A stretch of DNA of 64,000 nt, from positions 248,001 through 312,000 of the forward strand of contig NZ_AEIZ01000015.1 in the NCBI RefSeq assembly GCF_000165675.1, read 5' to 3'. Below are positions 7,569 through 45,721 of the stretch, piece by piece (position 1 is the first letter of the stretch; each line of letters opens with the position of its first letter). The notes below the pieces were generated by a model that saw only the letters and a program-made list of their open reading frames with translations, did no database searches and was not told where the DNA came from. This stretch comes from Leuconostoc fallax KCTC 3537 (GTDB lineage: Bacteria; Bacillota; Bacilli; Lactobacillales; Lactobacillaceae). A program made the translations under genes and the position numbers.

Positions 7569-9070
7569 TTAAAAAGTCAACTGCTTCACAACAGCATAAT
7601 CACCAATATATGGTACATCTTGGCCATTAATTTTCTGATACGGATCTTCACCCTTGCCCGCAACAATGACAATATCTTGTTCCCCTGCTGAAGCAATGGC
7701 TGCATGAATTGCTTTAATACGATCCATTTCAAAATGAACAACAACATGATCATTATTAATATGGCACGCAATTTCATTAGCAATATCAGCTGGATCTTCA
7801 TATTGCGGATCATCAGCAGTCAAAAAGACAACATCAGCTAATTCACCGATTACTTTTCCAAAATCTGCACGTCGGCTCACCCCTTTATTACCAGGTGATC
7901 CCACAACAACAATGACTTTACCAGTTGGATATTTACTTTGGGCAAAACTCAATAAGGCATGCATCGAAGCATAATTATGGGCATAATCAACAAAAGCAAC
8001 ACCATGACTTGGAATTGGCATGCTTAACATTCGTCCTGGAATAAATACTTCGTCTAACCCTTGCACCATATCTTGATGCTTAGCACCAGCAAATCCAGCA
8101 ATCATGAGCGCTGCTAATGCATTACTTTCATTAAAATCCCCCGGTATGTTTAACCGATAATGTCCGATAATTTCTGATAGTTGCTCAACTTTATGTTGCT
8201 CGGAAACTGTAAAATGACTTTCATGAATAGCGCTATCGTTTGATATAAAAACATAATCACCCTGATTTTGACGATTAGAACTGTAAGTATACAAACTTTT
8301 ACCAGCTTCATGATTTTGCTTTGCATGTGAAAATATTTCATCATGATGATCCGTTTCGTCATTAATCACAATCGTATCAGAGTGATCTAACAACATTAAT
8401 TTATGTGCTAAATAATCTTCAAATGTCGGATGTTCATTAGGGCCAATATGATCGGGAGATATATTGAGAAATGTTCCAACGTCAAAGTGTAAGCCATACA
8501 CACGATCTTTTAAGTAGGCCTGCGAACTCACTTCCATAATCAGATGTGTCATACCATTATCGACAGCCTGGCGCATATCTTTAAACAACTCATAAGATTC
8601 TGGCGTTGTTAAATCAGATTTCTTTTTATCACTCGCTTGCGGTCCTGTAATCCGATCAACAGTGGAAAAGAGAGCTGTGCGATTCTGTGTTGCATGTTTT
8701 AAAATATAATAGGCAAAATAAGCTGTTGTAGTTTTACCCTTAGTTCCCGTAATGGCACCAATCCATAACTTATCTTGTGGTCGATCAAAGAATTCCGCTG
8801 AAAGTAATGAAAGTGCTTGTTGCGTGTTACTGACAATCCACTGTGGGATATCAATGTCTAAGGGCTTAGTTGTTACAATTCCCGTAATACCTACTGCATT
8901 TTCAAGATATTTAGGATTGAAATTTCCCTTTACAACAAATAATGTATTGGGTTTAACCTGTCGTGTATCGTAATGCAAAAAGTCAAAGGTTAATGTCTGG
9001 CCTTTTGGTGCCGTTTTTAATAACTGATGTGTATTAAGTATGGCTTCAATTTTTTAGATGTTAATTGCAT
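7569..9070 (-). CDS. murE: UDP-MurNAc-tripeptide synthetase MurE (one-base frameshift near the start)
   Basis: Mur ligase adding the third amino acid of the peptidoglycan stem peptide. Seen: YDTRQVKPNTLFVVKG (N-terminal UDP-binding domain), the ATP loop GTKGKTTTA, HLIMEVSSQAY, VDYAHN and DDPQYED. DDPQ stands where meso-DAP enzymes have DNPR, so this is probably an L-lysine-adding enzyme, fitting lactic acid bacteria. The start ATG at 9070 follows AGAGG; reading through to the body needs one extra A in the A6 run at about 9050-9055. Corrected length 500 residues. Monocistronic between two terminators. Confidence 0.92.
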
Positions 9071-34944: not shown

Positions 34945-35206
34945 TTTTTCCCCTTTGGCAATAGATATCAAGATGAGCTATATATTATAAACTAGTCCTC
35001 TTAAAACAACTAACACCGATTTAGCACTATGTGCCGAATAGGTGTATAAAAATCACTTCTTTTTAAACATTGTGAATCCCATAATTGTTTTACCTCTATA
35101 TCAATATAAGTGATCCCTATTGCTTGTGAAGACAACTATTAACGTTGCGTTCGGATTCATTTCAGACTACAATTTCTACTATTCTATCAACAAGGAGATT
35201 TGGATA

Positions 35207-36221
35207 TTGAAACAGACGAAGCACATTGCATTTAAGCATGACATATTACGTTATGCTACTATGATTGCACTCATTATGGGGGCCGCCTTATTACTATTGA
35301 ATGCCACTGGCCAGGCATCACCAGAAATGGTTGGCATGGCAATTATCTCATTCACATTTGGATTGCAACATGCTTTTGATGTCGACCACATTGCCGCCAT
35401 CGATAATATGACACGTAAAATGCTAAATGACGGAAAAATACACGCGGCGTTGGCTTTTATTTTTCCTTAGGGCACTCATTAGTTGTTATTATTATGGCGC
35501 TCATCACTGTTTTGCTTGTTGAATGGGCAAAAAATACAATGCCAATATTTGAAGCATTGGGTGGGGCAATGGGTACACTAATTGCAGCAATTATGCTAAT
35601 TTTTTAGCCGTCGTCAATTCATTCATCATTGTCAATATTTGGTTAAACTTCAAAAATTCACAGCAAGATACAACATTAACCAGAAATGATAGCACATCAA
35701 AAATCAATAAAATCTTTCTTAAACTGCTCAATCTAATCCAGCATAATTGGCAAGTTATGATTGTCGGCTTCCTATTTGGCCTAGGGTTTGATACGGCAAC
35801 GCAAATTGCAGTACTCGCTTCTTCTGCAACAGCCACAAATTCAGGCGCTGCTTGGTATGTATCTCTCTCCTTTCCGCTATTTTTCACAGCCGGTATGTGT
35901 TTTATGGATACATTAGACGGCCTCTTCATGAGTTCTACTTACAAGTGGGTCTTTTCATCCCCCTATCGAAAAGTATATTTCAATTTAACGATTACTGGTA
36001 TTTCAATTTTAGCAGCCGGTTTTATTGGGTTTGCTGATCTAATTCAAGCACTGAGTGCTTTGCTTGATTGGAACAACGGTTTAACAAGTTGGGTGCAAGC
36101 ACTTGACTTCAATCAGCTCGGCTTTATTCTCGTTGGTTTATTTGCAATAAGTTGGATTATCGCATTAATCATTTGGCATAGTCTCAAACTATCGAATAAA
36201 GATCACGGGTCTATTATTTAA
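35207..36221 (+). CDS. NiCoT-family nickel/cobalt transporter (two frameshifts)
   Basis: 338 residues after correction, about eight helices. Signature helix 2 FGLQHAFDVDHIAAIDN (HX4DH metal motif), then GFYFSLGHSLVVI, LFGLGFDTATQIAVLA and FTAGMCFMDTLDGLFM. Start TTG at 35207 is preceded by AAGGAG. Breaks: one base missing near 35452-35458 (GG or TTTT, not a long run), and one T in the T6 run near 35601-35606. It takes up Ni2+ or Co2+; no nickel enzyme such as urease is in the window. Confidence 0.85.
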
Positions 36222-37146: not shown

Positions 37147-38687
37147 TCATATTCTCATCCAAGCAAACGTTCTTTTGAATAAATTGACGGTATAACTACT
37201 ACTCAAAGTCGCTAAAATAAATATTACAGGCAAAAATTGAATCAAATAACGACTTCGACCACCTTCAAAAATTAACAAGTACACGAAAGCACCTATTATT
37301 GATAATCTCAGTACTTGAGCCAACTTATGATGATAATTAAATCCAAAAGCCATTAAACCAAGTATAAAAATCCAAATCCATTGTGCAATATATCTAAAAT
37401 CTGCCACATACTTCCCCTTAGGGTAAACTAAGTTTTTGAAGAAGCGAGATTTATCCTGTTTATCTAATTTAGATTGGATAAAATGGCCTTCAATTAGCCA
37501 GGCAAAAGTACCATCGCTCGTATTTTTATTATGTTTATGCAGTAAAAATTTTAGATAACCAAAAATACCAAGTTTAGCAAGGCGTTGCTTCAAAATATTT
37601 TCTGAATATGTCACTTTATCTTCATATGCTGAGCGTTTAGCCATTTCGATATTATCTTTAGGGTTATAGCCACCATCCCCAGAAAGGCCCATGCTAATAA
37701 AGTGAATTGGTGGCATGTTGTCACCTTTCCTAATTTGAATATAGTCCTGCTTGTTAATTTGTTGTTGCCCATAAGTTACCGTTACAAACATAGTTAGTAA
37801 CATCAAGGTAACCGCACTAATACTATAAATCAAAATTTTGAACTGCTTTAAATATAGTGCCCTTAACATACCTAACAATTCAATTAAGATAATTGCAACA
37901 ACAGGTACGATAGCCGATGGTTTGATAAAATACGTCAAAGCTACTAAAATACCACCTAATCCCATTATTAGAATAGATGACATACGTTGTTGTCGTTGTG
38001 CGATAACATAGCACAATAGATAGCTCGACACCAACGGTAGTACCCATGTGTCTGAGTATGGCACAATAATCATCGGGAAGACCAACAAAAAATGGATTGC
38101 AGATATAATGCCCAAATCACTTTTGTCCGATCGATAATACTAATAGTGATTGTATTTAATATAATGGATATATCAACCAAAATTAAAGTCACTATATCAA
38201 ATAATAACCATGAATGGTTACTAAAATATACCGCAATATGATGTTGTATTAATAACAACGGTAAATTATTAGTACTTAAACTAAAATAAGAAACCAGCTC
38301 ATCATCAGTCGTATTCGTTAATGCACTATGAATAGCACCCGGATCAAAACCAATTGCTGGATGTGTCGCAAAAACAAAGAGCAGTTGTAAACCAACAACC
38401 AACATAAAAAGAATTGGTGCCGTTATTTTACCTTTAATATAAAATATAAAGTTAAAGCAATACCTAATTCTTTTATCAATCACTATGCCAATAATTGCGC
38501 CAACAACTAACAAAATAAAAGCGATACTTAACCATGTTGTTTTTTCACCAATCACTTGACGCGCCACATTATCACCTAAAGTCAAATTAGGCGATACTAA
38601 TGCAAAATATAAGGTTAAAAACAAAAAACTAAATAGTGCTAGAATAATTTTGTTTATTAGGCTATAGGCGGTAGATTTCAGTGCCAT
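37147..38687 (-). CDS. XrtG-associated polytopic membrane glycosyltransferase (TIGR03766-like; one frameshift)
   Basis: 513 residues after correction, about 12 helices. An extracytoplasmic loop with HPAIGFDPGAIHSALTN carries acidic residues where GT-C enzymes bind metal or polyprenyl phosphate; a second soluble loop lies around GLSGDGGYNPKDNIEMAKR. One T missing from the T6 run near 38085-38090 splits it. It is the last gene of the XrtG unit, and I recall this family (TIGR03766) being defined by proximity to exosortase G. Probably transfers a sugar from a lipid carrier; unproven. Confidence 0.75.
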
Positions 38688-38706: not shown

Positions 38707-40409
38707 TTATTCTAATGAAATACAACATGTCCGAGTTGGTGACTCAGAAACTTCAATACGGATAAGGTGACAACTGATATCTACTAATGACTGAGATAAA
38801 CGATCAAAAACAAAATCCGTAAAGTTTTCTAATGTCGGATTAATTTCGTTAAATGGTGCGACATCGTTAAGTGTTTGATTTGAGAAAGCTGATAATTGTT
38901 GTTCAATAATCGCTTCAACAACTTCAAATTTTACTAAATCATCACCTTCTTTTACTTCGCAAATGATTTCCCAAGTATGTGGATGGACAACGCCTCTCCC
39001 ACTATCCCATTGAACAGCATGACTTGCATTGAGATAGGTTTTAAATTTATAACTACGACTCTTCATCATATTTCTTATTCCTTTTTTAAAACGATCATAA
39101 TCATGCCAAACCACTTGTTTCACTGATTTTTTTTCATCTGCAAAACTTCTAGATTGCCATTGTGCAGGGATGATAATGGTATTAATAATGCCAATAAATC
39201 GTATCATTGCACAAAGCATATTGTAAGTTGGCAATGTAAAGATAACCCACCATTTTTTCTAAAAAATCGGCTTTCTTGATCAAAATGGCGTAACAAAATA
39301 CTAATACTAATAAAATTAATTAATGAATTGAACACATATAACAAGTACATGAAAATAATGGATAACGCAATAATGAGCGGCGAATAACCAAAGAAGATTA
39401 AAACAAATAACGCAGCAATCCAAATCGTTCTTGGAAAAATGAATGTATGATCAAACATTAAGCGACCCACCATAAAGTTCTGAAAGAAATCAGTTATTCT
39501 TAGTGTGTCTTTCATAAAATGTCGTGTTACTTCGATTTCGCCACGTTGCCACCTTTGCCGCTGAACGTATAGTTCATCCAACCCTGAAATAGGTTCGACA
39601 TAAAAAATTGCATCATAACAGAGCTTAACTGCGCTACCTAAGCGTTCTCGCAGTTGAAATGTCATATCGGCATCTTCTCCAACTGTCTGCGTATTATACA
39701 AATAAGTGCCTAACAACGCTTCTCTACGAAATGCTGAAAATGCACCTGACATCGTAAACAATTCATTGCGCGCTGATTCAATATTTCGACCAGCCAGAAA
39801 GGATTGCGCATATTCATAATACTCGTTATTGCGTAATATGCTCAAGAAGATATTTTTAGTAGCATTGATATCTTCTTTTTTAGTCAGAACTGTTCCCGTT
39901 ACTGCAGCATCATGTTGATTATTTTCAAAATGCAAAACTAGATTGTATAACGCATTTTCTTCTAAAACGCCATCTGTATCCAGGTTGACAATATATTGCC
40001 CGGTACTATTATAGATGGCAGCATTCAATGCTTGTGACTTTCCCTTGTTGGTATTCATCCATTGAATACGTAAGTCAGAAAACGCTTGTTGTGCACGGCT
40101 GTATTCATCAAAACTACTGTCGGTACTATGATTATTAGCCACAATCACTTGAATTAATTGATTCGGATAAGTGGAATTATGGATTGAAGCAATACATGCA
40201 TAAAGTGTTTTTGAGGAATTATAAACAGGAAGAATCACCGAAATCATCGGCAATTTTTCAGGAACAATGATGTCTTTTTTGGTATACCCTTGTTTCATGA
40301 GTGTTAAAAAATGCCACGAAGTTGGTAAAATTTCAAACACAATTGGAATTAATAACCATGTTAACCAAAAGCCCATATTAAAAATTAAATGGTCAAATAC
40401 AATATTCAT
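38707..40409 (-). CDS. XrtG-associated GT2 glycosyltransferase fused to a PTPS-like domain (one frameshift)
   Basis: 567 residues after correction. GT2 part (TIGR03111-like): ISVILPVYNSSKTLYACIAS, LDTDGVLEEN (DXD), GEDADMTFQLRER and QRQRWQRGE (QxxRW of processive enzymes), flanked by helices. C-terminal about 150 residues (from YKFKTYLNASHAVQW, with HPHTWEIICEV) resemble 6-pyruvoyl-tetrahydropterin synthase (TIGR03112-like). One A missing from the A6 run near 39255-39260 separates them into two frames; corrected, the junction reads FFRKKWWVIFTLPTYNM. It abuts xrtG without a gap. Confidence 0.82.
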
Positions 40410-41005
40410 TTATCTGATCTCCTGCTGCAGACCACGTCCAAATTTTTGAATAATTTGGCCACGGGTAAATACTTGATAATATAATATAATCGCTAAAATA
40501 TAGAAGATAATTCGGCCAAGAATAGAGTGTGCGACGTAGAAAGCATCTGAACCGAAATAGTAAATAACAATGGCAACAAACGATAAACGAATAATATTTG
40601 CCAAAAAAATCCAAATTGTCCCAGCAACCATTAAGAGAAAACGATTTTTCAGTGTATATACAGGATAAAAAGCAATTAATGAACCAAAAGCCATTGTTTC
40701 AATAATTCCGGAACATTCATAATCAATAAATAATAAATTCATATGTTGATGATTCATGATCTCAATCAAATGTGATGCATAATGCACACTAAAAAGACCT
40801 GTTAAATACCCGACAACACTGACGCCTTTGGTTACAATAGTTGAAAATAACCATATACCATAAGGTTTACTCAATAAAGCTAAAATAATAAACAAGCCAA
40901 TACTACCAACTAAAAATAAAAAGCATGGGTTTTCGCACGTTTCAAAACAGACAATAAATATAACCAAACAATAATAATCAAAATAATGGTTGTTTTCAAA
41001 ATCAT
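40410..41005 (-). CDS. xrtG: Exosortase family protein XrtG (one frameshift near the start)
   Basis: 198 residues after correction, about seven helices. Catalytic set of exosortases: Cys in DYECSGIIETMAFGSL, Arg in FLANIIRLSFVAI and His in YVAHSILGRIIFY. The probable start is the ATG at 41005, overlapping the upstream stop (ATGA) and following GGAGCAACG. From there MILKTTIILIIIVWLYLL runs to one missing T in a T5 run near 40910-40914. The alternative frame's N-terminus (MEQRYDFENN) is not membrane-like. It is thought to cut and transfer Firmicu-CTERM proteins, one of which is encoded directly upstream. Confidence 0.88.
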
Positions 41006-41730
41006 ATCGTTGCTCCATTTTTTCGTAAGCGATACTTTTTCATTAACGGTAAGCTAATGACAGCCATCCCTAAGCCAACCATGGCAATCAGAATTGGTCC
41101 CGAAGAAGCACCAGAATAATCAGCTGAAACATTACCGTTGAAGAAAATCGTGCCACCATTACTGCCATGGAAAGTGATATTTGTTTGTGATGGTAAATCA
41201 CTGCCATATACTTCTTTAACTGTAGCCATCGGTATTTTTAGTTCCCAGCGATCATTATACTTACCGTTAGCAGCTTGACGTTCAAGGTACCCATCGCCTA
41301 CACCATTAACTGATTTATACGAATTGGCATCGTAAATATTACCGACAGAAAAATGGACCGAACTATTATCAGGGCGATAGCCTGGAAAATAAATTTGCAC
41401 GTACATGTCATGCCCGCCAATTGAAAGATAATAACTACCTGACTTAGCATCGTAATCATTCGTCGATTCCTTTGAATCCGGACTAAATAATTTAGGTGCC
41501 ATACTCATGTAAATGTAAATATTATCTTCGTCAACAAACAAGCCTACTTGACGCATATTATTGGGATAACTCGGGCTTGCCGCAAATTCTTGAACAGAAC
41601 CTACACTACCCCAATCCGAAAAATTACCATCGATATTAATACTATTGGCACTAGCAGTATGCGATACCAATACAAATCCTAAAACCAAGCCCACACCTAA
41701 CAAAATGTAGTCACAAATTACTTTTTTCAT
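41002..41730 (-). CDS. Firmicu-CTERM domain surface protein, predicted XrtG substrate
   Basis: 242 residues. Signal peptide (KKVICDYILLGVGLVLGFVL, cut after SHTASA), then INIDGNFSDWGSV, a motif common to carbohydrate-binding/DOMON-like beta-sandwich domains. The C-terminus has a helix GPILIAMVGLGMAVISLPLM followed by the basic tail KKYRLRKNGATI, matching a CTERM sorting signal. Coupled to xrtG by an ATGA overlap. Downstream glycosyltransferases suggest it is glycosylated or anchored to a glycan carrier after processing. Confidence 0.85.
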   Translation of the reverse strand: MKKVICDYILLGVGLVLGFVLVSHTASANSINIDGNFSDWGSVGSVQEFAASPSYPNNMRQVGLFVDEDNIYIYMSMAPKLFSPDSKESTNDYDAKSGSYYLSIGGHDMYVQIYFPGYRPDNSSVHFSVGNIYDANSYKSVNGVGDGYLERQAANGKYNDRWELKIPMATVKEVYGSDLPSQTNITFHGSNGGTIFFNGNVSADYSGASSGPILIAMVGLGMAVISLPLMKKYRLRKNGATI

Positions 41731-41766: not shown

Positions 41767-41792
41767 AAAAAGACGAGCCTTGGTAGCCCGTC
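41767..41792 (-). terminator. Terminator upstream of the Firmicu-CTERM/xrtG unit
   Basis: 8-bp stem 41771-41778 / 41785-41792 with one G-U and a T-run on the minus strand, overlapping the stop of the membrane-protein gene. It separates that gene from the xrtG unit. Confidence 0.65.
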
Positions 41793-43563
41793 TACTTTTC
41801 TTTTACCATTATTATTTGTAAGCTTCGCGCAAGGACTAATAACCAAGCTAAGGCAGTAAGTATGCTGACCATCTTAAAAATATAACTCGGCTGATAGCCA
41901 ATTTCAAAAATATTGGCACCTTTCTGCTGCTTTACCTCAACTGCACCAATGATATTGGCCTTTAATCCTCGACTAGATATGCGTTTATGATTAAACGTCG
42001 TCACACTATGCGTATATTTATAAACTGGTAGAATAACATTTCTCACTTGATTACCTTGCCAGGATAATACCAAATGCTGTTGCTGGTTAACTGATTTATT
42101 GACCTTAATATTGTTTAAGAATGTTGCTTTAATATTTGCACGATATGGTTTGAAACTATTTTTTGCCATAAATTACCTTGTTGCTGAATCGGTAAATAAT
42201 CTGGTGTGCCCTTTTGAAGAATCGTAAATGGTTTTCCAAGATTTTTATCTTTAAAAGCAGCTCGAATAACGTCAGGATTTTTATCTTTATATATAATCTT
42301 ATTACGGTAGGTTAGAACGTTATCCGACAACCACTTTTGGCTAATTGTTACCTTCTTTTGAAGGTTGAATGTCGTTAATAAAACCACAATCAGTACCATG
42401 ACCGTTGTTAAATGGCTTATTTTTTGACCAAAGTTACTACTCAAAGTCAGACTTACTGCCAATAATAATAGAACGTTCGATAATATAACAAGCCTAAAGG
42501 GAAATTGCAAAAAGGAATACAAAACGGGTAAGTGCTTGCCAATTGTATTCCATGGCATTATATCACTGGATAACAATAAAAAAGTAGCACCAACGTAAGT
42601 TAAAACACGATTAGTAAATGATATGAAAGATGCCCGTTTGAATACTAATAACAATTGTATCGCAAATAAACAAGAAGAAATAAGGCCTAAAGTACCAAAA
42701 CTATCATGGCCCCAACTAAAACTCGTTGCGACAGCCTGTAAATCATACTGTGGATATGGCTTTAGTAAATTATCGGATCCATAAATATCCAACATACCAC
42801 CCCAGATATTACCGGTTAAGATAATCGTTAAACCCACTGCTAAACAACCATCACGCACGAAAGCAACCTTATGTCGCGTTGTAAAAAGCCCCACTAAAGC
42901 AAATGGTATTAACACTAGTACCGAAAATAAGGCGCTCAACATATGAGTTTGTATCATAATGGCCATAACAATAGCTAAGGCACCGTAATGAATTTTAGCA
43001 TCTTGGCGTTTTAACATTGGCAACGCCTGCATAATGACATACGGTATTAAGACCGCGCCCCATGCGCTAAATTTCTGTGAATCACTCCATGCCGTTACCC
43101 AATAGCTGTTCATATAAACAATCGCCATTAACGTTGCAACATTATTCTTCGCACCGGCGTATTTGGATAACTTATAAAAGCCAAAACCAGCTACAAAATT
43201 GAGTAAAATATTTGTAATGATTTGGTACTTAAACCAGCTATTAACAAGTGCAAGCACCGCACCATTCAAGTAAGCAACCACAGGACCATATAAAGCATTT
43301 ACAATTCGGCCGCTTTGATTAAAACCATATAAACTCATGAAATAGCTAAAGTGCCCAGTTTTTATTTGCATCGCCGTGTCATAGAAGCGATTAAAATGAA
43401 ATATCGAATCCGCACCCAAAATAATAGCATGAAAATAAATTTGTGGCACAATCAACAAAATACTAAACAACAAAATGATCAGAACTGATTGTATCTTATG
43501 TTGTTGAATGGACTTGGTTAGCCTTCTCAAGATACACCTCCTGATGTCTCCATTGAAATTCAT
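41792..43563 (-). CDS. PTPS_related-type (YfhO-like) membrane protein A (one frameshift)
   Basis: 590 residues after correction, about 11 helices and a C-terminal extracytoplasmic domain followed by one helix. The first loop holds GADSIFHFNRFYDTAMQIK, an acidic GT-C-like motif. Paralogue of the gene at 43938-45721 over its whole length (e.g. SGRIVNALYGP, QTHMLSA, KPFTILQKGTPDYLP), but clearly diverged in sequence. One A missing from the A6 run near 42160-42165 splits it; corrected, it reads NLWQKNSFKPYRANIKATF. Likely a membrane glycosyltransferase; substrate unknown. Confidence 0.72.
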
Positions 43564-43937: not shown

Positions 43938-45721
43938 TCATTTTAACACCATATTTTTAGTTAATAAAAATCGAATATGATTAAATAGCTTTATAGCACC
44001 AAATCCTATTAAAATGAACCAACTGATGACCGTCAATCCACTCATATAACGGAATGCACGACTAGGCCGGTAATCTATCTTAAAAGTATTTTTGCCTTTT
44101 ACCTGTTTAACTCTAACGGCACCTACCACTGTTGTTTGAACCTTTGAATTATCAAGCGCCTGATGATTCAAAGACATTTTACTATCAGCATATTTATAAA
44201 CAGGCAATGTAACAACTTTTTTGCTATTACCCTGCCATTTTAATATTAATTGATTATGGCTATCAATTGATTTTGTTACCTTTAGGGGGTTAAAAAATGT
44301 TGCCTTAATATTTTCATTATAGGGATGGAAATTATTATCATCCCATAATTTACTATCTTTATGAGCTGGTAAATAATCAGGTGTACTTTTTTGTAAAATC
44401 GTAAAGGGTTTCCCTAAATTATCGTCTCTAAATGCAGATCTGATAACTGCAGGATCAGTTTTCTTAAAGTTAATATTTATCCTATTCGATAATACATAAT
44501 CTCCATTCCAACTTTTACTGATTCCTGATAAACCTTGAAAATTTAAAGTAAAAAATACTATAGACAATACACTCACAATAGCAATTGGAAGATTAACTGT
44601 TTGAAAATTTTTAACCAGTTCTATCTGAGATAACGTCAAACTAATTGACAATAGAAGCAATATGTTCGAAATAACAACCAATCTAAAAGGAAATTGTAAA
44701 AACGAATCAAGCGCTGGAATGCTATCACCAATAATATTCCAAGGTATAAGACTACTAGAGATTATTAAAAATAATGTACCGATTATGGTAATTAACTTGT
44801 TTTCAAAAGAAATTAGAGATGTTTTTTGAAGAACAAGTACAATTTGAGTAATGAATAAAAATGATGATAAGATACCCAATTTACCAAATGAATCACCACC
44901 ATCCAGTGATAGATTAGTTGATAATGACAATAAATCTGTTTGAGGATGAGGTTGAATTAATTTATTATTACTTGAAACGTCTAAAAATCCCATCCAAACA
45001 TTTCCGGTTAAACATAATGTGAGCAATACGGATGCCACACCATTACGCATAAACAAATATTTTTCAGACGTTAAATAAAACCCTACTAACGCAAATGGTA
45101 TCAATAAGCAAACAGCAAATACAGCACTTAACATATGCGTCTGAATGACTATTGCCATAACAATAGCTAAAGCTAGTATATTAATTTTGGGTTGTCGTTT
45201 ACTAATCATGCCCACGGCTTGCATAGCCACGTATGGCATTAAAGATGCCCCAAACGAAGTAAATTGTTGCGAATGACTCCAACTTGTAATCCAGTATGTG
45301 TTCATATACAAAAAAGCTATTCCAATAGCAATTTCATTATGACTACCTAATTTTCGAGCGAGCTTATAAAAGCCAATACCAGATACAATATTAATCAAAA
45401 TCCCAGATAATACTTGGTACTTAAACCAACTTCCAGATATTAACAATAGTAGTCCATTCAAGTATGCAAACATAGGACCATATAATGCATTTACAATACG
45501 CCCACTTTGATTAAAACCAAATAAACTCATAAAGTAGCTATAGTGTCCTGTTTTAATTTGCATAGCTGTATCATAAAAGCGATTAAAATGAAAAATTGAA
45601 TCGGCACCAAAAATAACTGATTGATCATATATTTGTGGTAACATCATCATAATACTCAATAAGATGATAATTGAAATTGACTTTAAGTTTGACTTTTTAA
45701 AAAATGAATATACATTTTCAC
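43938..45721 (-). CDS. PTPS_related-type (YfhO-like) membrane protein B (one frameshift)
   Basis: 594 residues after correction, same topology as its neighbour: about 11 helices, the loop motif GADSIFHFNRFYDTAMQIK identical, and a C-terminal soluble domain (NENIKATFFNPLKVTKS) plus one helix. Start: GTG at 45721, 8 bases after GGGGAG (ATG at 45715 is the alternative). One T missing from the T6 run near 45699-45704 hides the N-terminus; corrected it reads KMYIHFFKKSNLKS. Product of a tandem duplication with protein A. Confidence 0.72.

Follow-up and report, generated by a model that had tools for sequence, protein, structure and literature searches.

On the minus strand of the Leuconostoc fallax KCTC 3537 genome, within a stretch of 64,000 nucleotides (hereafter the window), the gene of a family 2 glycosyltransferase (GT2) lies next to a domain that resembles 6-pyruvoyl-tetrahydropterin synthase (PTPS). 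The original prediction, which corrected a single A6 run, read the two as one polypeptide of 567 residues, raising the questions of whether this fusion is real and of what a pterin-enzyme fold might do beside a membrane glycosyltransferase. The answer that we favour as a whole, with moderate confidence, is that two adjacent genes were joined on paper and that the second of them would encode an accessory T-fold protein linked to c-di-GMP.

The XrtG cluster of the window

The assembly that contains the window (1.64 Mb in 30 contigs, 91.24% complete) carries, in minus-strand order, genes for a Firmicu-CTERM protein, XrtG, the GT2, the PTPS-like frame and a TIGR03766 glycosyltransferase that is split in two. 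The Firmicu-CTERM protein gene (41002..41730) scores 146.7 bits with TIGR04145 (cut-off 50), and we infer that its product is the probable substrate of XrtG. A terminator-like hairpin, found by a consensus scan only, is present 5' of this gene on the same strand (41771..41793) and is a possible upstream limit of the operon. XrtG itself, an exosortase family protein, is encoded at 40410..41018 (TIGR03110, 184.9 bits, cut-off 102.75). The frame of the XrtG-associated GT2 (39204..40409) scores 523.5 bits with TIGR03111 (cut-off 363.95) and encodes 401 aa, with QRQRW at residue 283 and with DTD and EDAD motifs; it specifies a membrane GT2 that is PgaC/IcaA-like and whose C-terminal part is out of frame.

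The PTPS-like domain is located in a frame at 38707..39234 that matches TIGR03112 with 126.7 bits (cut-off 69.35), and it stands close to XrtG and next to the TIGR03111 gene, the genomic setting tested for this model. Beyond it lies the gene of the second XrtG-associated glycosyltransferase (TIGR03766; 37147..38687), which occupies two frames split at about 38088-38091. The split was confirmed by models, the two pieces covering profile positions 2-192 and 190-495 with 218.5 and 432.8 bits against a cut-off of 500. All five models of the XrtG system (TIGR03112, named 6_pyr_pter_rel, and TIGR03111, TIGR03110, TIGR03766 and TIGR04145) match the cluster, four of them above their cut-offs. By these scores the original prediction had correctly recognised the GT2 with its QxxRW motif, the identity of the PTPS-like domain and the XrtG context.

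GT2 and the PTPS-like domain in related genomes

We surveyed 301 genomes sampled at family level, and the TIGR03112 cut-off was exceeded in 54 of them. The open frame that holds the domain measures 183 aa in the L. fallax assembly and 122-161 aa in the 53 other genomes. No relative was matched when genome contigs were scanned with the single window protein as query. We examined 71 loci from named relatives, of which 60 have a GT2 gene at most 800 bp upstream, 10 have none there, and one is without an open domain frame. GT2 and the PTPS-like domain occupy separate frames in all of the 60 loci with a GT2, and a GT2-PTPS fusion was seen neither in these (0/60) nor in the loci from other classes (0/10). 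The single natural polypeptide of 567 residues is contradicted by these relatives, in which the GT2 ends with its own stop, and the check that the original prediction had proposed, a look for the same fusion in other XrtG loci, came out negative.

The spacing of the two genes is tight. GT2 frames are short in 8 of the 60 loci, where they are broken or cut by the contig end, and the remaining 52 have at least 430 aa; in 45 of these 52 there is a Met start between -19 and +31 nt relative to the GT2 stop. Judging from these frames, GT2 and the PTPS-like domain are very likely two separate genes, which are probably translationally coupled within what would be an XrtG surface-glycan operon.

The place of the domain gene in the operon is variable, since it stands away from the XrtG genes in Lactiplantibacillus plantarum EGD-AQ4 (L181), on the strand opposite to them in L172, and upstream of CTERM-XrtG-GT2 in L176 and L205. 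The order XrtG-GT2-PTPS-TIGR03766, together with GGDEF- and EAL-like genes, was also encountered on a contig (L221) whose label names an archaeon, Candidatus Methanovirga australis; the domain it encodes is 63% identical to a lactobacillus query, and the contig is probably mis-binned.

Frame breaks at homopolymer runs

How, then, did the two genes come to be joined in the window? The GT2 frame there covers positions 3-385 of the 439 positions of the TIGR03111 profile, and the last 48 matched positions (389-436) sit in the PTPS frame, so the GT2 loses its frame within 39255-39297. The site of this loss has two runs, T6 (39261-39266) and A6 (39253-39258), which together span 39253..39266. A search for the fusion protein as one uninterrupted frame failed at the same break. 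A second A6 run is present at the GT2/PTPS junction (39082..39087), approximately where the GT2 ends in relatives, and both alternative frames hit a stop there within about 12 codons. Because the GT2 of the relatives ends with a stop and the domain has a separate frame, the join in the window needs, besides the frame change, a second anomaly, the absence of that stop, and each of the two falls at an A6 run. As the original prediction said, one frame change does make the two read as a single chain in the window, with zero stops between the GT2 C-terminus and the end of the PTPS-like domain. Read as a gene of its own, the PTPS-like protein would start at ATG 39069 and comprise 120 aa (38707..39069), with a Shine-Dalgarno-like AAGGA (39079..39083) 9 nt upstream of the ATG. 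A plasmid search with the junction region as query gave no match.

We asked how often frames change over 320 kb of the same contig. Alignment of 56 conserved genes (59.1 kb) revealed 7 frame changes, all of them close to a run of at least 5 and two of them within the XrtG cluster. In the control genome, for which the reference set is not identical, there were 0 frame changes in 57 genes (61.8 kb), and 1 in 69 genes when more references were used. Random 75-base stretches of the L. fallax contig hold a run of at least 5 in 33% of cases and one of at least 6 in 11%. These 320 kb contain 47 runs of at least 7, whereas two relatives have 500 (in 357 kb) and 272 (in 400 kb). From the excess of frame changes and the scarcity of such long runs we conclude that homopolymers are called too short in this assembly, although it may also carry real pseudogenes. 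We considered a programmed -1 frameshift as the main reading and rejected it, because other genes of the contig also change frame at runs, and the relatives read the GT2 in a single unshifted frame. Homopolymer-length errors would have joined two neighbouring genes on paper, and we regard the fusion in the window as an artefact, at best an oddity of this strain.

Other frame breaks read from this contig (C16) should be treated with caution. By eye, a YfhO-like gene (41792-43563), which has an intact paralogue at 43938-45659, and a transporter-like gene (35120-36221) each appear to be split into two frames.

Fold and residues of the PTPS-like domain

The PTPS-like protein of the window was modelled with AlphaFold2 from its own sequence and those of 34 named homologues, giving a mean pLDDT of 94.5 and a pTM of 0.88. 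The best structural match of this predicted model, among those listed, is the PTPS homologue 2dj6_B (Z 17.1, rmsd 2.0, 112 residues). Next come E. coli QueD, with Z 15.1-15.7, and two PTPS entries, 1gtq and 3i2b, both with Z 15.1. A PTxEN-like motif is present in the domain. A Pfam scan (E 0.01) of the GT2 and PTPS parts returned only GT2 families and PTPS, and no known c-di-GMP-binding domain (PilZ and the like).

Residues were compared in 44 of 48 domain sequences, L011 having been dropped for a stop and L033, L037 and L057 for contig ends. The three His of the zinc site, a putative metal site, are present in 44/44 aligned members and in 71/71 named loci, so the description of a His pair only partly evident was wrong. 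The acidic pterin anchor is Glu in 28 members, including the window protein, and Asp in the other 16, and two residues past the conserved Pro beside the anchor there is an Arg in 42/44 members and a Lys in 2. The residues that we take to be catalytic in PTPS/QueD, whose columns were placed by alignment to solved chains, are gone. The Asp and the His are kept in 0/44 members, and the nucleophile column holds Cys in 0/71 named loci, being occupied by T (33), E (11), M (7), S (5), Q (4), I (4), V (4) or L (3), so that the Glu of PTPS-III type accounts for only 11/71. The comparison with bona fide PTPS that the original prediction had called for thus has a divided outcome, the three His and the acidic anchor being found and the Cys and the Asp-His being absent. 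Since the catalytic Cys and Asp-His are missing, the domain is, with good confidence on this residue pattern, not a PTPS/QueD enzyme; its features are more those of a binding module.

The domain in other architectures

Genomes from other classes of the phylum have the TIGR03112 domain within long frames of up to 1313 aa. Three of these long proteins were scanned, and in them PTPS lies on the N-terminal side with PF10131 behind it; by eye, the terminal part of one such PTPS-PF10131 protein resembles a CTERM protein. True fusions of the domain were seen only in those classes and only with other partners, namely PF10131 or a two-helix membrane protein. In L089 (11607-12710) the PTPS-like domain is located at the C-terminus of a sensor-like membrane protein with two helices assigned by eye, and the same locus has a second, stand-alone PTPS-like copy (7914-8318) and a GGDEF gene (313-1479). 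At L087 (4014-5219), also from another class, XrtG carries a fused N-terminal region, Firmicu-CTERM-like as judged by eye. The intact YfhO-like gene of the window (43938-45659) was considered as a homologue of the PF10131 partner and dropped, with a BLASTP E of 0.86 and an empty Pfam scan.

Association with GGDEF and EAL genes

The same 301 genomes were searched for GGDEF matches at a threshold of E 1e-10. GGDEF is present in 52/54 genomes with the domain versus 84/247 without it (odds ratio 50, p 1e-18), where 5 of 59 genomes, having a partial or sub-cut-off TIGR03112 match, were scored as domain-less. Counted by genus, the association persists, with GGDEF in 14/16 genera with the domain versus 7/24 without (p 4e-4). 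A control family, citF, has no link to the domain (20/54 vs 106/242; odds ratio 0.75, p 0.45). XrtG behaves like the domain: 56 of the 58 genomes with XrtG also have GGDEF, and XrtG and the domain are found together in 53 genomes. As XrtG shows a like association, the c-di-GMP link belongs to the XrtG system and not to the domain alone. Two genomes, Oenococcus oeni (G144) and G009, are exceptions: both carry XrtG as well as the domain, and neither gives a GGDEF match at E 1e-10.

The association is also physical. A GGDEF- or EAL-like gene flanks 23/71 loci, and a GGDEF gene flanks 16/71, where the density of 1.27 per Mb in carrier genomes predicts 1.5 (Poisson p 8e-12). Enterococcus gallinarum (L194) has XrtG-GT2-PTPS-like-TIGR03766-EAL-GGDEF in overlapping or abutting frames, all of them confirmed by models. 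In Periweissella beninensis (L212) TIGR03766 is followed by two EAL-like and two GGDEF-like genes, and in Lactobacillus sp. UBA5815 (L213), where no GT2 was found nearby, the domain gene is flanked by a GGDEF gene and an EAL gene. Four Limosilactobacillus loci (L211, L214, L215 and L217) have an EAL-like gene directly after the domain gene, confirmed by Pfam in L211 and L217. L. fallax has two GGDEF/EAL pairs, both on contigs other than that of the window. We consider it likely that the XrtG system is under c-di-GMP, and the whole system would be an output of c-di-GMP signalling.

Possible roles of the PTPS-like protein

The PTPS-like protein would be a small soluble T-fold protein of PTPS/QueD descent, with the metal site and the acidic pterin/guanine anchor retained. 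Most likely it serves the XrtG-associated membrane glycosyltransferases, which it would contact, as a ligand-binding accessory, and a small ligand in the former pterin pocket may set their activity under the control of c-di-GMP. That the domain is regulatory is an idea towards which we incline slightly.

The pterin ring and guanine have a common edge, which is read by the acidic anchor. Because of this, and because guanine-bound T-fold proteins have been solved, c-di-GMP is a reasonable candidate ligand. The suggestion in the original prediction that the domain could bind a nucleotide-like regulator fits the c-di-GMP association, but the binding itself is speculative. We think it doubtful, though worth stating, that the PTPS-like protein is a direct c-di-GMP (guanine-nucleotide) receptor, and a candidate for a new class of them; the acidic anchor would then read the guanine base, and the protein would switch the membrane glycosyltransferases of the XrtG system, taking the place of PilZ or of a degenerate GGDEF/EAL protein in lactic acid bacteria.

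The domain might instead be a structural chaperone or coupling subunit that has no small ligand, with c-di-GMP acting elsewhere, for example on the GT2. The tight gene order and overlap with the GT2, the fusions to PF10131 membrane proteins and the fact that the GGDEF association holds for XrtG as well would all suit such a role, but a chaperone has no need for a ligand-type pocket of metal site and anchor that is invariant across classes, and we hold this explanation to be improbable as it stands. Slightly less probable still is a new kind of enzyme, in which the zinc would act on a pterin-like, purine-like or sugar-nucleotide substrate, and which would make or modify the donor or the lipid carrier of the XrtG glycan. 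Such a role would account for the invariance of the three His and the acidic anchor in 44/44 members, which goes beyond the needs of a mere scaffold, and for the placing of the TIGR03112 family among glycosyltransferases; against it, all three known catalytic positions (Cys, Asp and His) are lost and an alternative general base is not obvious. A genuine GT2-PTPS fusion in this strain, in which loss of the stop and a programmed or mutational frame change would yield the 567 residues and tether the domain as a cytoplasmic regulator, is very unlikely. In its favour, the stretch from the GT2 C-terminus to the domain is free of stops, GT2 and domain genes touch or overlap in the majority of relatives, and in other classes the domain does form true fusions with membrane partners of other kinds. 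Against it, such a fusion occurs at none of the 60 named or 10 other-class loci, demands an unusual frame event at a run on a contig with a general run problem, and leaves an SD-like site and an ATG in front of the domain.

Comparison with known systems

Each part of the cluster is a new member of a known family. The accessory protein that we favour resembles the PTPS/QueD enzymes (2dj6, 4ntk, 2oba and 1gtq) in its fold (Z 15.1-17.1), its three zinc His, its acidic anchor and its PTxEN-like motif, and differs from them in that the catalytic Cys and Asp-His are missing from all PTPS-like members examined. PF10131 PTPS_related proteins likewise have the TIGR03112 domain, on their N-terminal side, and most of them adjoin XrtG and GT2, but their partner is a large multi-helix membrane protein and not a GT2. 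The guanine-bound T-fold proteins 1sql and 3v9o indicate by their entry titles that the same fold superfamily can bind guanine; they are, however, dihydroneopterin aldolases, and align with a Z of only about 8.

A functional parallel in a lactobacillus is the gts operon of L. acidophilus with PdeB. That operon is reported to link a BcsA-like GT2, GtsB, with a c-di-GMP receptor of the degenerate EAL type, and more DgcA led to more EPS (PMC6123363). A BcsA/PgaC-like GT2 is there controlled by c-di-GMP, as may hold for our cluster, but the receptor is a degenerate EAL protein, and the passages covered mention neither XrtG nor a PTPS-like protein (PMC6123363). XrtG genes have been listed among those over-expressed in self-aggregating L. 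plantarum (PMC12854382). The literature searched, with subscription journals mostly outside its scope, yielded no functional account of the XrtG system and no paper joining PTPS and c-di-GMP.

In NCBIfam, the model names shown for the XrtG system give neither an activity nor a link to c-di-GMP, whereas the cluster of the window belongs to a system linked to GGDEF and EAL genes. What is new here is that the XrtG cluster tracks c-di-GMP signalling. This link would give the XrtG system a regulator and account for its co-occurrence with GGDEF proteins in lactic acid bacteria; if the PTPS-like protein does bind c-di-GMP, a well-known enzyme fold would have become a new kind of second-messenger receptor. 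The connection between XrtG and c-di-GMP, with a catalytically stripped pterin fold as the candidate sensor, is the part worth following.
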